Shown here piece by piece: positions 8,358-43,185 of a stretch of DNA of 64,000 bases (position 1 is its first letter; each line of letters opens with the position of its first letter). The position numbers and the translations under genes are program-made. Source of the DNA: Flavobacteriales bacterium. GTDB taxonomy: Bacteria; Bacteroidota; Bacteroidia; UBA10329. The notes beneath the pieces were generated by a model, which saw only the letters and a list, made by a program, of their open reading frames with translations, did no database searches and was not told the DNA's origin. The stretch covers positions 1 through 64,000 of the forward strand of contig JAIPBM010000019.1 of NCBI GenBank assembly GCA_021739695.1, read 5' to 3'.

Positions 8358-9809
8358 ATGAGTGTGAGAGATAAATATCAGCCTATCATCGGTTTAGAGG
8401 TGCACATGCAACTTATTACCGAATCGAAGGCATACAGCAGCGATAGCACTGAATTCGGAGGAATGCCGAACAGCAATGTGAGCGTGGTGACACTTGGTCA
8501 TCCTGGCACGCTGCCAATGGTGAACCGTGAGGTAGTAAACAGCGCCATCAAGTTGGGGTTGGCCTGCGGATGCAGCATTCGAGAATATAACGAGTATGCG
8601 CGCAAAAATTATTTCTATGCCGACCTTCCAAAAGGCTACCAGATAACGCAAGACACCACGCCTATTTGCAATGGTGGGTCGATTCAGATAAAACTCGCTA
8701 ACGGAGAAGCGAAATACATTCGTCTTACCCGTATTCATATGGAAGAAGATGCAGGCAAAAGCATGCACGATCAAGACCCATTTGATACGCTTGTTGACTT
8801 GAACCGTGCTGGAGTTCCTTTGTTGGAAATCGTTTCAGAACCAGACATCCGAACAGGCGATGAAGCCTACGATTACCTGATGGAAGTGCGAAAACTTGTG
8901 CGCTACCTCGAGATCTGCGATGGCAACATGGAAGAAGGCAGTTTGCGTTGCGATGCCAATATTTCGGTGATGTTGAAAGGCTCAGACAAGTACGGAAGAC
9001 GCGTGGAGGTAAAAAACATGAACTCCATGCGAAACGTGCAACGCGCCATTGAGTTTGAGATTGACCGTCAGATCGCAGAATTGGAAGCTGGTAGAGAGAT
9101 CAGTCAGGATACGCGAAGTTTCGATGCCGCCAAGGGAACAACCTTTGTGATGCGAAGCAAGGAAATGGCCAACGATTACCGCTATTTTCCAGAGCCAGAC
9201 CTGCCACCAGTTATTGTGGATAAGCAATGGATTGCGGATGTGAAAGCCACCATGCCAGCATTGCCAAACGAACTACACAAGAAGTTCACGAACGATTTTG
9301 GATTGAACGAATACGATGCAGGCGTTTTGACAGAAAGCAAACCTGTGGCGCTTTACTTCAACGAACTGACTTCGCACACAACGAATTACAAGGCTGCTTC
9401 AAACTGGGTAACAGGCGATATCAAATCGTTTTTGAATGAGTTTGCTGTTCACATGGAAGATTTTCCGGTGAAACCAAAAACAATGGCGAAGCTGATTGCC
9501 TTGATAGACGAAGGGAAAGTGAGCCATTCGGCTGCTTCTCAGAAACTATTCCCTGAGCTATGCAAAAACCCTGATAAGGCTCCGCTGGAGATTGCCCAAA
9601 GTCTCGACCTCATCCAAGAAAGCGATAGCGGACAACTGGAAGAATGGGTAGATGCAGCATTGGCAGCGTATCCAGATAAAGTGGAAGAATACCGTGGCGG
9701 AAAGCAAGGCGTGCTCGGCCTTTTTATGGGTGAAGTGATGAAATTGAGCAAGGGCAAGGCCGACCCGAAACTGGCCAATCAATTAGTAAGACAAAAACTA
9801 CAAGGATGA
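8358..9809 (+). CDS. gatB: Asp-tRNA(Asn)/Glu-tRNA(Gln) amidotransferase subunit B
   Basis: The 483-residue GatB subunit phosphorylates misacylated Glu-tRNA(Gln) or Asp-tRNA(Asn) so that GatA-derived ammonia can amidate it. Signatures are VRDKYQPIIGLEVHMQL at the start, YADLPKGYQITQ, DLNRAGVPLLEIVSEPD and GSLRCDANISV in the catalytic cradle, and a C-terminal YqeY-like tail domain ending GLFMGEVMKLSKGKADP. Length is normal. It lies between accA and the TlpA-like gene, and the latter's start codon overlaps its TGA. Confidence 0.97.
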   Translation: MSVRDKYQPIIGLEVHMQLITESKAYSSDSTEFGGMPNSNVSVVTLGHPGTLPMVNREVVNSAIKLGLACGCSIREYNEYARKNYFYADLPKGYQITQDTTPICNGGSIQIKLANGEAKYIRLTRIHMEEDAGKSMHDQDPFDTLVDLNRAGVPLLEIVSEPDIRTGDEAYDYLMEVRKLVRYLEICDGNMEEGSLRCDANISVMLKGSDKYGRRVEVKNMNSMRNVQRAIEFEIDRQIAELEAGREISQDTRSFDAAKGTTFVMRSKEMANDYRYFPEPDLPPVIVDKQWIADVKATMPALPNELHKKFTNDFGLNEYDAGVLTESKPVALYFNELTSHTTNYKAASNWVTGDIKSFLNEFAVHMEDFPVKPKTMAKLIALIDEGKVSHSAASQKLFPELCKNPDKAPLEIAQSLDLIQESDSGQLEEWVDAALAAYPDKVEEYRGGKQGVLGLFMGEVMKLSKGKADPKLANQLVRQKLQG

Positions 9810-10939
9810 TGAAACGAGCAATTCTTATACCGATGGCCACCTTCCTGTTTCTGGTAGGATGTGCCCAAAAAGACGCAACCATACACGGAAACCTGGCAAA
9901 CGCAGAAGGTGAAACCATGTTGTTGGAACGTCTCTCTTCATCTGCAGCCGAAGGCGTGGATTCTGCTGAAGTAAGTAAGAACGGAGATTTTAAACTCAGT
10001 ACGGGAGAAATCACCGAACCTGCATTCTACCGTCTTAGCGTCAATAAGAACAACTTCGTGATCTTGCTTTTGAACGCAGGCGAAAAGGCAGAATTGAAAG
10101 GAAATGCCCTTGATTTCTACCAGAGCTACGAGATCAGCGGTTCCGCAGGTTCAGACAAACTGAGAGTGTTGGACCAACGTCTGCGCTTGGATTACGAAAA
10201 AACAGACAGCCTTCGAAAGTCGTTTCAAGCGTATCAGCAAGCTGGGCATCCTCGCTTGGATTCCATTGCACAAAACATTGATGGCGTTTTCCAGCAAATG
10301 CAAGAAGAAAAACGTCAATACGTTATCCAGTTCATTAACGAAAATTCCAGTTCACTTGCATCGCTTTCGGCTGTACAATCGCTCAATCCAGCACAAGACC
10401 TAGATGTATTTGAGAAAGTTGCTGAAGATCTTACGGCAGCACTTCCAGAATCGGATTACGTTAAGAAATATAAGCTGCAATTGGTTGAGATGAAATCGAA
10501 ACAACAGGCAGCCAGCAGAACGCAGATCGGAGCGCAAGCACCAGAATTGGTGCTAAAAACGCCTGAAGGCGAAACCATCAAACTTTCTGATTTCCGAGGT
10601 AAAGTAACGCTGATCGATTTTTGGGCTGCATGGTGCAAACCTTGCAGAATGGAAAACCCGAATGTGCTCAAGGTTTACAACCGATTCAAAGACAAAGGCT
10701 TCGAGATATTCGGTGTTTCCTTAGATCAGAATCAGGAAAGTTGGGTAGGCGCCATCCAACAAGATGGTTTGATCTGGAAACACGGTTCTGAACTCAAATA
10801 TTGGCAATCGAGCTTTATCCCTGCTTACAACTTGGACGGCATTCCTATGACCTACTTGGTAGATCAAAATGGCATCATCATCGCTTCTGGCCTACGTGGT
10901 GCAGAATTGGAACAAAAGCTAGAGGAAATCTTCCAATAA
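9806..10939 (+). CDS. TlpA-like thiol-disulfide oxidoreductase lipoprotein with DUF4369
   Basis: A 377-residue lipoprotein. The leader ends in the lipobox LVGC (Cys19). It then has an N-terminal DUF4369 domain (about 25-110), a helical linker, and a C-terminal TlpA/ResA-like thioredoxin domain (about 240-375) with the redox motif WCKPC in DFWAAWCKPCRMENPN. It would reduce or shuffle disulfides of envelope proteins. Two adjacent ATG codons (9806, 9809) both work; the first overlaps the gatB stop, implying coupling. This two-domain arrangement is typical of Bacteroidota. Confidence 0.9.
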   Translation: MMKRAILIPMATFLFLVGCAQKDATIHGNLANAEGETMLLERLSSSAAEGVDSAEVSKNGDFKLSTGEITEPAFYRLSVNKNNFVILLLNAGEKAELKGNALDFYQSYEISGSAGSDKLRVLDQRLRLDYEKTDSLRKSFQAYQQAGHPRLDSIAQNIDGVFQQMQEEKRQYVIQFINENSSSLASLSAVQSLNPAQDLDVFEKVAEDLTAALPESDYVKKYKLQLVEMKSKQQAASRTQIGAQAPELVLKTPEGETIKLSDFRGKVTLIDFWAAWCKPCRMENPNVLKVYNRFKDKGFEIFGVSLDQNQESWVGAIQQDGLIWKHGSELKYWQSSFIPAYNLDGIPMTYLVDQNGIIIASGLRGAELEQKLEEIFQ

Positions 10940-10976
10940 TTTGCCGTTCAATTAAGGAGTAATCCGTACAGAAACC

Positions 10977-11074
10977 ATAGCAAGAGCACGTCATTGCGAG
11001 GAACGAAGCAATCTTTAACTATTCTGGTGAGAGATTGCTTACGTGTCACCTCCATTGTAACGATAGCAAGAACA
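10977..11074. repeat. Interspersed repeat insertion with 12-base flanking repeats
   Basis: A 74-base element (10989-11062) starts CGTCATTGCGAGGAACGAAGCAATCT. Its right part, AGATTGCTT...CCTCCATTGTAACG, is a decayed inverted copy of the left. It is flanked by ATAGCAAGAGCA (10977-10988) and ATAGCAAGAACA (11063-11074), an 11 of 12 match that looks like a target-site duplication. A relative lies at 43056-43154. The insertion covers the start region of the M1 peptidase gene. Confidence 0.75.
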
Positions 11075-14068
11075 TTTTCACTTGTTCTGTTCATCTGCTG
11101 TTCCGTTTTTCCGTTTATCGGTTCTGGGCAGGAATACTTCCAACAGGAAGTCAACTACGAAATCCACGTTTCCTTGGATGACGAGCGGCACCAGCTCCAT
11201 GCCACCGAAACCATCGAATACGTAAACAACTCCACTTCTACCCTCACATTCATCTGGTTTCACATTTGGCCCAACGCCTACAAGGACGGCCAGACTGCGC
11301 TTAGCAAGCAGATGCGGCAGGATAATGACCTCACGCTCTTCTTTTCCAAACCAAGCGACAGAGGCTGGATAGATAGCCTCGACTTTCAGATCAATGGGCA
11401 AAAGGCGCGCATGGAAATTGACCATCGCAACCAAGATATCTGCCGCGTATTCCTGAATGAACCGCTGGCACCTGGAGAACGGATTACCATTTCCACGCCT
11501 TTTACTGTTCAAATTCCGAAAGGCATCTTTTCGCGCTTGGGACATTTGGGGCAAGCCTATCAGATCACACAATGGTATCCAAAACCAGCGGTGTTCGATA
11601 AGGATGGCTGGCACCAGATGCCGTACCTCGGACAAGGCGAATTCTATTCCGAGTTCGGAACCTTCGATGTTCACATCACCTTGCCGCAGAATTACGTGGT
11701 GGGCGCCACGGGCGATCTTGTAAATGGTGAATCTGAACTCGCTTGGCTAGATGAAAAGGTAAAAGAAACCGAAGCAATTGCTGAATTCGATTACCGCGAC
11801 ATGTCGTTCCCTGCATCCGCATCAAGCACAAAAACACTCCACTATCATCAAGAGAAAGTCCACGATTTTGCTTGGTTTGCCGATAAGCGCTACCACGTGC
11901 TAAAGGGCGAAGTGGAACTTCCAAAAACCAAACGGAAAGTGACCACGTGGGCCATGTTTACGAACAACGAGGCCGACCTGTGGAAGAATTCCATCGAGTA
12001 TCTGAACGATGCCACGTATTACTATTCGCTGTGGGTGGGCGAGTATCCTTACAATCAGGTAACGGCTGTGGATGGCGTGCTCTCGGAAGGAGGCGGCATG
12101 GAATATCCGAACGTGACCATCATTGGCGAAAGCGGCAATGCCAAGAATCTCGAAGAAACCATCATGCACGAAGTGGGACACAACTGGTTCTATGGTATGC
12201 TTGGCAGCAACGAACGCGACCATCCGTGGATGGACGAAGGCTTGAACTCCTTCATCGAATCACGCTATATGGATAAGAAGTATCCGAACTTGAAATTCAG
12301 AGACGTGTACGGGGGACGAAAGCTTATCAATTTTGGAATGAAGTGGGCGGGCGTTTACAATCTCGACCAGAAACATTTGAACGAACACGCTTATCGTTTG
12401 GCAGCACGAACCAATACCGATCAGGCCATTGATCTGCCGTCTGAAGACTACACCAGCATCAACTACGGCACCATCGTTTATGCCAAAACAGCTTTGGTTT
12501 TCAATTACCTGATGAAGTATCTGGGTCAAGAGAAGATGGACGAGATCATGCTTTCCTATTATCAGCAATGGAAATACAAGCATCCACAGCCAGAAGACCT
12601 CAAAAAAGTAATGATCGATGTGGTGGGAGATTCGCTACCGTGGTTCTTAGACGATGTGATCGGAAGTCACCGCAAACTGGATTATTCCATTGCACAGATC
12701 AAGAAGGAAGACGGAAAACTGAAGATAAAGGTGCGGAACATGGGTAAAATTGCAGGCCCTTTCCCCATCAGTGGTATTACTGGAAAGGACACAGTCATCA
12801 CCCAATGGTTCGAGCCTGTGAAGAAAACCGGTTGGGTAACACTTGCCTGCAAATCGTGCGATCGTGTGGTCATCGATTCTGAAGAGGTCATTCCCGACAT
12901 CAACCGCAAGAACAACAGCATGCGAGTGAAGGGTTTTCTGCGCAAAGTGGAACCGATACAGCCGCGATTTGTAGGCTATTACGAAAACCCTTACCGTTCT
13001 CAATTTGCCTTGGCGCCCACCTTGGGTTGGAACACTTACGATGGTCTCATGCTTGGTTTTGCCGTGTACAACGACATGGCGCCTGAGAACAAATTCAGCT
13101 ACATGATCATGCCCATGTACGCCTTCGATTCCAAGACCATTACAGGCTCTGGCCGCATGTCCTACACCTTCCATCAAGAACATCGCTATCCCAATGTCAC
13201 CATCGGGTTGGAAGGTCAGCGTTTCAACGTGGGGCGTATTTCTCCGTTCTACAATCCAACTGATGCCTACAGTCCGCAGTTGCCGCGCAACATCATGCGG
13301 CAATACTTGCTCTTCGATTTTCTTCCGAATAAGAGACGAAGCAATATGAATCAGAGTATCCGCCTGCGAAACACGATGTTTTTCACCGAACAGGGAAAGC
13401 TGATCCGCAACATTCCGCAGATCACCTACCATTTCAAGCGTGCATACGCTCCACACATTGCGGAGCTTACTGCCGATCTCCAATGGTTGAACAATGAAGC
13501 CAAGTTCGGAATCGAAGCCATCTATCGTTTCAAATTCAAACGTGGCTATGGAATTAGGGCGCGCATGTTCTTCGGCAAATTCATTAACCGCTCATCTACT
13601 CCTGCGTTCAATTTCCGAATGGCTTCCTTCAGAGAATTTCAAGATTACCTCTATGAAGGCACCTTTATCGGTCGTAAACTCGATAATGGATTCTTATCAC
13701 AACAGCTGATGGAAGCAGACGGTGGATTCAAAAGCAATTTCTCCATAGGTAGTTCAAACGATTGGATCTTGGCGCTCAACCTCAGTTCCACTCTTTATCG
13801 CAGAATTCCCATCGAACTGTTTGCCAGCGTTGGAACTTACGCCAGAGCCAAAAGTGTGTTCCCCGGTTCTCAGCAATTTTTGGCCGAATTCGGAGTAAGC
13901 GTTATTGTGGTAAGGGATGTGTTGGAAGTGCATTTTCCCTTCCTTTACTCCAGAGATGTATCGGACAACGTCAAATTGGCCACCAACAATTACGGTCAGC
14001 AAATACGTTTTACCTTCAACCTCAACGAATTGAAACCGATCCAACGTTTGAAAAGCCTACTCAAGTAA
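10994..14068 (+). CDS. M1 family metallopeptidase (aminopeptidase N-like)
   Basis: A zinc aminopeptidase of about 1000 residues, exported. The catalytic centre is HEVGHNW (His392, Glu393, His396 counting from 10994) with the third ligand Glu415 in WMDEGLN, and the substrate loop EGGGMEYPN precedes it. A long C-terminal region of roughly 400 residues, rich in aromatic beta strands, may be an outer-membrane or surface domain. The start is uncertain. No ATG precedes the signal sequence (ARTFSLVLFICCSVFPFIGSGQ); candidates are TTG 10994 and GTG 11027, both inside the inserted repeat. The stop overlaps the ATG of the next gene (TAATG). Confidence 0.9.
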   Translation: MRGTKQSLTILVRDCLRVTSIVTIARTFSLVLFICCSVFPFIGSGQEYFQQEVNYEIHVSLDDERHQLHATETIEYVNNSTSTLTFIWFHIWPNAYKDGQTALSKQMRQDNDLTLFFSKPSDRGWIDSLDFQINGQKARMEIDHRNQDICRVFLNEPLAPGERITISTPFTVQIPKGIFSRLGHLGQAYQITQWYPKPAVFDKDGWHQMPYLGQGEFYSEFGTFDVHITLPQNYVVGATGDLVNGESELAWLDEKVKETEAIAEFDYRDMSFPASASSTKTLHYHQEKVHDFAWFADKRYHVLKGEVELPKTKRKVTTWAMFTNNEADLWKNSIEYLNDATYYYSLWVGEYPYNQVTAVDGVLSEGGGMEYPNVTIIGESGNAKNLEETIMHEVGHNWFYGMLGSNERDHPWMDEGLNSFIESRYMDKKYPNLKFRDVYGGRKLINFGMKWAGVYNLDQKHLNEHAYRLAARTNTDQAIDLPSEDYTSINYGTIVYAKTALVFNYLMKYLGQEKMDEIMLSYYQQWKYKHPQPEDLKKVMIDVVGDSLPWFLDDVIGSHRKLDYSIAQIKKEDGKLKIKVRNMGKIAGPFPISGITGKDTVITQWFEPVKKTGWVTLACKSCDRVVIDSEEVIPDINRKNNSMRVKGFLRKVEPIQPRFVGYYENPYRSQFALAPTLGWNTYDGLMLGFAVYNDMAPENKFSYMIMPMYAFDSKTITGSGRMSYTFHQEHRYPNVTIGLEGQRFNVGRISPFYNPTDAYSPQLPRNIMRQYLLFDFLPNKRRSNMNQSIRLRNTMFFTEQGKLIRNIPQITYHFKRAYAPHIAELTADLQWLNNEAKFGIEAIYRFKFKRGYGIRARMFFGKFINRSSTPAFNFRMASFREFQDYLYEGTFIGRKLDNGFLSQQLMEADGGFKSNFSIGSSNDWILALNLSSTLYRRIPIELFASVGTYARAKSVFPGSQQFLAEFGVSVIVVRDVLEVHFPFLYSRDVSDNVKLATNNYGQQIRFTFNLNELKPIQRLKSLLK

Positions 14069-41754: not shown

Positions 41755-43185
41755 CTACAAATAAACCTCCATCACCTTCCCAGCGATTCTGTTGAGGTTT
41801 ATTTCGATGGTTTTGAGCGTGTATTGCAGTTGCATGAGGCTTAGTCGGCTTTCCAAAAGTGTGAGTTGCGTGAGTCGGAAATCATAGCCATTGATGGCAC
41901 CCCGTTTCAATTGTTCTTCGGCAATGGCGTACACCTTTTGGCTCTCAGAAACATTGCTTTCAGCCAAGGTAATGCGTTCCAATATGGAGACATACTGCCC
42001 ATAAAGTTTCAGTACATCGGCATCGAGATTATGGTTGATCTGCTGCTTAGAAAGCGTGGCGTTCTCGGCATACACCCGCGAATTCTTGATGGCAATGTTG
42101 GTCTTACCACCATTGTAAAGGTTGAAACTGATGCTGGCGCCCACGGTTGGTCCAAAGTTTCTGTTCGATTGGATGAAGCCTACCTGCGCAAAACTTTCGC
42201 TGTATCTGTAGCCTGCAAACAGATTGATGGACGGATAGCGATCGGCCTTAGCCATGCGCAATTCTGTTTCGGCTATCAGTTCATTCAGGCGCTGCTGTTC
42301 TAACTGCTGGTTGGCGCCATTCACACTTTTCAGTAGGCTGTCTTTGCTTGGCAAGGGATTTACCTCAAACTCTTTTTCGCTGATGGTCAAGGCGCTTTCC
42401 AGTTCATTATTCAGAATGCGATTGAGTTCAATTTCTAAGGTTTGAATGGCATTCTGCTGCGCCAGATAACGGATGCTATCGGTCTGATAATCTACCAATG
42501 CCTGTGCATGGTCAATGCCCTTCCCCGCGCCTACTTCCTTCCGTTTCTTCTCAATACTAAGGCGATAGGCCGAGATTTGCATCGATTGCTTGTAGTTCTC
42601 TAGCAACTGCTGTTCGTAAATCAACTGGCTGTGCGCCATCACAATATCAGAAACGGTCTGTTCTATGTAGAACTTGGAATTCACCTTTCCCAACTCTTCT
42701 AAAAAACCCAGTTGCTTGCGCTTGGCACGTACATAAAAGCCATCAAAAAGGGTGTAATCAATCATTGCCTGCGCGCCCCCATTCACGTTTTGCGCATTAT
42801 TTCCGCTTCGTGTAGATCCATCGGCAAAGCCTTGCTCGGTATTGTTGAGCGAGTAGGCAGCCGTTCCGTCAATTCCGAACGAAGGGAGAAAACCTGCATT
42901 ACCCAAGGTATTGCTGTTGGACACAATCTGCTCCTCGTTCTTCAAAATCTGAATTTGGTAGTTCTTCTCCAATGCCGTTTTGATGAATTCGGTCAGCGTT
43001 TGTCCCGAGGCGTTGAGGTTGAAATAACAAATAACCACCGAAATAATTACAACGCGCGTCATTGCAAGCGCAGTCCCCGTCATTGCGAGGGAAGTATGAC
43101 CGAAGCAATCTATCTGATTAAGGTAGAGATTGCTTCGCTGCGCTCGCAATGACGTGCCCTTCGTTTTATTGAAAATCTGCTTCAT
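41755..43185 (-). CDS. TolC-family outer membrane efflux protein
   Basis: A TolC-type channel with two long helical repeats (about residues 50-260 and 265-470), including VNGGAQAMIDYTLFDGFYVRAKRKQLGF and GATISFNLYNGG-like strand motifs, with the signal-peptide core VVIISVVICYFNLNASGQ. It exports drugs or toxins with the neighbouring pump. The frame begins at ATG 43185 (MKQIFNKTK), overlapping the pump gene by 20 bases, but codons 10-43 come from an inserted repeat. Internal ATGs at 43083 and 43062 could also serve; 43062 gives a normal leader. Last gene of the marR operon. Confidence 0.9.
   Translation of the reverse strand: MKQIFNKTKGTSLRAQRSNLYLNQIDCFGHTSLAMTGTALAMTRVVIISVVICYFNLNASGQTLTEFIKTALEKNYQIQILKNEEQIVSNSNTLGNAGFLPSFGIDGTAAYSLNNTEQGFADGSTRSGNNAQNVNGGAQAMIDYTLFDGFYVRAKRKQLGFLEELGKVNSKFYIEQTVSDIVMAHSQLIYEQQLLENYKQSMQISAYRLSIEKKRKEVGAGKGIDHAQALVDYQTDSIRYLAQQNAIQTLEIELNRILNNELESALTISEKEFEVNPLPSKDSLLKSVNGANQQLEQQRLNELIAETELRMAKADRYPSINLFAGYRYSESFAQVGFIQSNRNFGPTVGASISFNLYNGGKTNIAIKNSRVYAENATLSKQQINHNLDADVLKLYGQYVSILERITLAESNVSESQKVYAIAEEQLKRGAINGYDFRLTQLTLLESRLSLMQLQYTLKTIEINLNRIAGKVMEVYL
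43056..43154. repeat. Interspersed repeat inserted in the TolC leader
   Basis: One full element, CGTCATTGCGAGG...CGAAGCAATC and AGATTGCTTCGCTGCGCTCGCAATGACG (43127-43154), plus a partial extra end CGTCATTGCAAGCGCAG at 43057. Same family as the copy at 10989-11062. On the minus strand it translates to the well-known repeat-derived peptide SLRAQRSNL. It adds about 33 codons in frame. Confidence 0.85.

Follow-up and report, generated by a model that had tools for sequence, protein, structure and literature searches.

Repeats at the N-termini of bacterial proteins may be translated or may reflect misannotated starts, and the literature on REP sequences has leaned to misannotation. The question is raised again by an M1 peptidase gene in a 64,000-nucleotide stretch of a Flavobacteriales genome (GCA_021739695.1, contig JAIPBM010000019.1; the whole stretch is referred to as the window and the genome as G000), where a repeat occupies the place in which the start codon would be expected. 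Based on a comparison of orthologous leaders within the genus, we propose, with a probability of roughly 70%, that the repeat has been co-opted as the start codon and the signal-peptide n-region of the M1 peptidase.

Structure of the M1 leader and candidate start codons

The element is 74 bases long (10989-11062) and lies between near-identical 12-mers, as the initial annotation had described, and the 12-mers match at 11 of 12 positions. What had been missed is that the element is an inverted repeat, i.e., a palindrome of left arm, loop and right arm (Table 1). Pairing with the left arm involves the inner part of the right arm, AGATTGCTT; in the outer half, G000 reads ATTGTAACG where GCAATGACG, which includes an outward ATG, is usual. 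No match to the repeat core appeared in 100 shuffles of the window, and the Rfam scan of the window returned no match. An assembly artefact was rejected because the same insertion is present in four other assemblies.

The absence of an ATG from the leader, noted at the outset, was borne out: from the upstream stop codon (10937-10939) to the signal-peptide-like core SLVLFICCSVF there is no in-frame ATG, and the only standard in-frame starts are the TTG at 10994 and the GTG at 11027, both inside the repeat. The AAGGAG motif that had been taken as a possible original ribosome site is indeed found at 10954-10959, but such a role is unlikely because the motif lies 34 nt 5' of the TTG and is missing from the leaders of relatives, and because Bacteroidetes ribosomes make little use of Shine-Dalgarno sites, favouring instead A at position -3 and low structure (PMC6847099, PMC9976891).

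Table 1. Features of the M1 peptidase leader and of the second repeat copy in the window
Feature	Position	Strand	Remark
Upstream thioredoxin-like protein (AhpC/TSA, DUF4369)	9806..10939	+	Same gene order in G002, G003, G004, G006
Left flanking 12-mer ATAGCAAGAGCA	10977..10988	+	Adjoins repeat; part of local duplication specific to G000
Left arm CGTCATTGCGAGGAACGAAGCAATCT	10989..11014	+	Peptidase-frame reading S-M(TTG)-R-G-T-K-Q-S
TTG, proposed start	10994..10996	+	In frame in 5/5 insertion-carrying species
M1 family metallopeptidase (PF01433), probably exported	10994..14068	+	1024 codons counted from TTG
Loop of palindrome	11015..11031	+	Alignable with G004 loop, marking the same insertion event
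Alternative in-frame GTG start, in loop	11027..11029	+	G000 only
Right arm AGATTGCTTACGTGTCACCTCCATTGTAACG	11032..11062	+	Inner AGATTGCTT intact, outer half decayed
Right flanking 12-mer ATAGCAAGAACA	11063..11074	+	Encodes I-A-R-T just before hydrophobic core
TolC-like outer membrane efflux protein (PF02321)	41755..43185	-	Frame open from ATG 43185 (MKQIFNK) through repeat
Second repeat copy	43078..43154	-	TolC-like gene leader; right-arm ATG 43083-43081

The same insertion in related species

Orthologs of the M1 gene were found in eight congeners of G000 (G001 to G008), several of the genomes compared being incomplete assemblies. Comparison of their leaders, the check that the initial annotation had suggested, revealed the same insertion in four of them, so that the carriers are G000, G001, G002, G003 and G004, whereas the G006 leader is free of the repeat and has a plain GTG-TTA-AAA-AAA start (MLKKSTVFL) directly after the upstream stop. 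No such repeat was found in the M1 leaders of G005 and G007. The G008 ortholog has a different upstream region, and its leader consists of other repetitive sequence with no close start before the core. Loops (TTTAACTATTCTGGTGAGAG in G000, TTTCACTAGTCGAGTAAGAG in G004) and flanks can be aligned between these two carriers, whereas the loops of other copies differ, which argues for one shared insertion in the M1 leader. In the protein tree G003 groups with G006 and the remaining species group together, so that the history takes either two insertions or a single one that was lost in G006.

Evidence for translation of the left arm

The TTG of the left arm, read as M-RGTKQS, stands in the peptidase frame without a stop in all five carriers despite their differing leader lengths (135/135/111/114/120 nt from TTG to mature protein), and the alternative frames are interrupted by stops in four of the five leaders in +1 and in three of the five in +2. 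Judged from composition, the chance of a stop-free leader is 0.10-0.25 each, and the product of about 2e-4 overstates the case because the five leaders are related and the tests are not independent. In three of the carriers, G000, G002 and G003, every standard in-frame start falls within the repeat: G003 has the TTG alone, and G002 has a second TTG downstream of it. Both arms are kept in G001 and G004, with the right-arm ATG directly before the signal core (FAMTVVLFLLF in G004 and FAMTVFFFLHL in G001).

The decay of the two arms is asymmetric. In the three species that lack the right-arm ATG, the left arm carries 0-4 edits of 26 and the right arm 8-15, counted to the nearest known arm; the corresponding right-arm distance of G001 is 0 by construction, its own arm being in the reference set, and was not used as evidence. 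The substitutions in left-arm codons 2-7 of G002 and G003 are biased to synonymous ones, at five of seven vs about 29% expected (P 0.02-0.03). By prediction the TTG is highly accessible in G002 and G003, moderately so in G000, and inaccessible in G004 and G001, where the hairpin is complete. The decay of the right arm would thus have both eliminated the ATG and freed the TTG. Each of these lines is modest; taken jointly, they speak for translation starting at the TTG and for a left arm that serves as n-region. Points against are that the leaders are only five and related, that the TTG has T at -3 (with A at -6 and 40-50% A in the preceding 20 bases), that it lies partly within the predicted hairpin in G000 (probability of being unpaired 0.56/0.06/0.02), and that G006 needs a loss or a second insertion.

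In the history that we propose, a member of the repeat family would have inserted between the thioredoxin-like and M1 genes, at the end of the signal-peptide n-region, before the five species diverged, and the own start codon of the M1 gene would have been lost. The repeat would bring starts of its own, namely an outward ATG near each outer end and the TTG in the left arm. In G001 and G004 the right-arm ATG immediately 5' of the signal-peptide core may serve, and in G000, G002 and G003, where the right arm would have decayed with loss of its ATG, translation would proceed from the left-arm TTG. With the latter start the hydrophobic core would be preceded by a lengthened n-region of positive charge, and the peptide MRGTKQSLTILVR would be the expected product of the start at 10994. 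Changes of this kind are tolerated in signal peptides, where charge and hydrophobicity are the properties that chiefly count.

The start in G000 could instead be the GTG in the loop, with the left arm serving as an untranslated hairpin leader. This GTG is in frame, and starting there would leave the hydrophobic core unchanged and make the signal peptide (MRDCLRVTSIVTIARTFSLVLF...) 34 residues long, which is more ordinary than the length obtained from the TTG. However, the codon is GTA in G004 and G001 and has no counterpart in G002 and G003, so that a GTG start cannot explain the open left-arm frame in the latter two species, and we regard it as unlikely. It is less probable still that the insertion damaged initiation, leaving G000 with little or no translation of the gene: the missing ATG, the hairpin over the start and the loss of the right-arm ATG would fit such damage, but the M1 proteins of the carriers share more than 70% identity with HExxH intact and no stops, G000 retains an intact run of 1001 codons beyond the leader, and the leader frame is open in all five. 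Judged from these features, the M1 gene looks functional.

A recent transposition with 12-base target duplications (ATAGCAAGARCA) is very improbable, even though the 12-mers abut both borders of the element exactly and random flank pairs reach 11/12 in 0.03% of draws (P about 3e-4), since the same insertion lacks such flanks in the four congeners and none of the 21 other palindromes of the family has a flanking duplication, the best flank match being 8/12. Being specific to G000, the 12-mers are not insertion scars and probably arose by a later duplication of local sequence in the G000 lineage, at the base of the hairpin; its right copy extends the signal peptide by I-A-R-T. The earlier proposal that a repeat had moved into the leader and now supplies the start codon therefore survives in part: supply of the start by the repeat, which is dispersed and has its TTG in frame in the four congeners as well, is most likely, but the recent move that the 12-mers had seemed to mark does not agree with an insertion common to five species.

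Distribution and classification of the repeat family

The census of the 4.2 Mb G000 genome was made by pattern searches, in which the family gave 22 matches by DNA similarity and 45 matches to the arm pattern; the reversed pattern, used as a control, had 0. In a sample of Bacteroidia covering 295 genomes and 156 genera, 54 genomes and 23 genera had the repeat, the richest genome giving 224 matches. Many copies are palindromes of a left and a right arm of 71-100 nt, and intact copies end in GCAATGACG, with an ATG pointing outward near each end. Searching the literature for the core of the repeat and for LRGTKQS brought up no relevant papers.

The arms begin with CGTCATTGCGAG, i.e., a CGTC-type tag followed by a stem starting with AT, and a single arm folds as a 5 bp stem (ATTGC/GCAAT) with a 10 nt loop. 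Di Nocera et al. (2013, PMC3733652) described CGTC-tagged REPs in which a CGTC (or TGTC/CCTC) tag precedes an AT-starting stem and which occur mostly as inverted pairs, each unit having a stem of 8-9 bp and a loop of 4-5 nt, with no dedicated tyrosine transposase; copies at protein N-termini were noted and many were judged probably extragenic (PMC3733652). The element described here is similar in the CGTC tag followed by AT, the inverted pairs, the dispersed distribution, the lack of a Y1 transposase in G000 and the presence of some copies at N-termini. It is called CGTC-REP-like and not a member of that family because its stem and loop sizes differ, and, unlike the N-terminal copies called extragenic there, those in this genus appear from the species comparison to be translated. 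A RAYT transposase as the mover was rejected, as G000, the genome of the genus richest in copies, has no match to Y1_Tnp (PF01797). Terminal inverted repeats, as in MITEs, are present, and target site duplications were found neither at the 21 other palindromes nor, as far as the M1 12-mers are concerned, at the orthologous insertions.

Repeats in the leaders of other exported proteins

In at least four other exported-protein families of the genus, copies of the repeat lie in signal-peptide leaders. The TolC-like gene that carries the second copy in the window (Table 1) has other starts at 43083 and 43062, and its G008 ortholog, 75% identical, has the repeat in its leader too; in both species an ATG overlaps the end of the upstream gene (MKQIFNK in G000 and MKQIFSK in G008) and the frame is open through the repeat to the core. 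In a second TolC-like gene of G000 (C52), MTLFVTLSTNSQAQ begins at the ATG of the repeat, and the orthologs in G004, G002, G008 and G001 have leaders without it. A different repeat type, encoding SPLKRGCRETRRG and SPFQKGCRGTRRG, is found in the leader of this gene in G006 and G003 (L222, L224), and in G000 the gene is surrounded by a cluster of repeat arms in tandem and inverted arrangements (L144, C52, 1224-3725).

A DUF4381-like gene (L129/L232, L233-L238) has plain signal peptides in G006, G002 and G005 (MKQFLSISLL, MRKLFFILCLL and MMRIHSLIIGL); in G008 it reads MKKIASFLAMTLICVSGLFAQ from a repeat arm, with an n-region including MKKIASFLAMT, in G000 it carries in-frame repeats, and in G004 and G007 it carries other repetitive sequence. 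In G008 a DUF4159 gene runs through the arm as ILIKIASSFALAMTLGFGSLQAQ, mostly plain starts being present in the other congeners, and a putative lipoprotein of G000 (C12) reads KEIASFLAMTALLIVALTSC. Among the ends examined, nearly all repeat-end ATGs that open a long frame with no better start nearby belong to putative exported-protein genes; with a partial genome-wide count as denominator, we treat this as a lead. We tentatively suggest, at somewhat less than even odds, that the leaders of exported genes are a regular landing zone, in which the outward ATGs of the repeat and its signal-like segment (IASFLAMT, in one frame) replace what the insertion destroys, which would let the repeat persist at gene starts and renew signal peptides repeatedly.

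The enterobacterial RU-2 element forms part of the signal peptide of YPO1552 in Yersinia (Delihas 2007, PMC2759123). That is a single annotated case with no within-genus ortholog series, whereas here several families have repeat-free orthologs. What is new here is an ortholog series that appears to support translation and start-codon replacement, and that recurs at several exported loci within a single genus; orthologs with and without the insert argue for translation and for co-option of the start codon. Such insertions may offer a simple route for quick change of signal peptides, and they call for caution where start codons are assigned automatically in Bacteroidia.

Palindromic repeats that are kept in frame within protein genes are also known as the Rickettsia palindromic elements. 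These belong to another phylum, and most of the cases with a usable terminal ATG described here sit, unlike them, at signal-peptide leaders. Similar to their description, an in-frame palindrome lies inside a GNAT acetyltransferase in G008 and G004 (L115, 1203-1796 on the minus strand, and L181). A further in-frame copy away from a leader is found in a membrane protein of G000 (C4).
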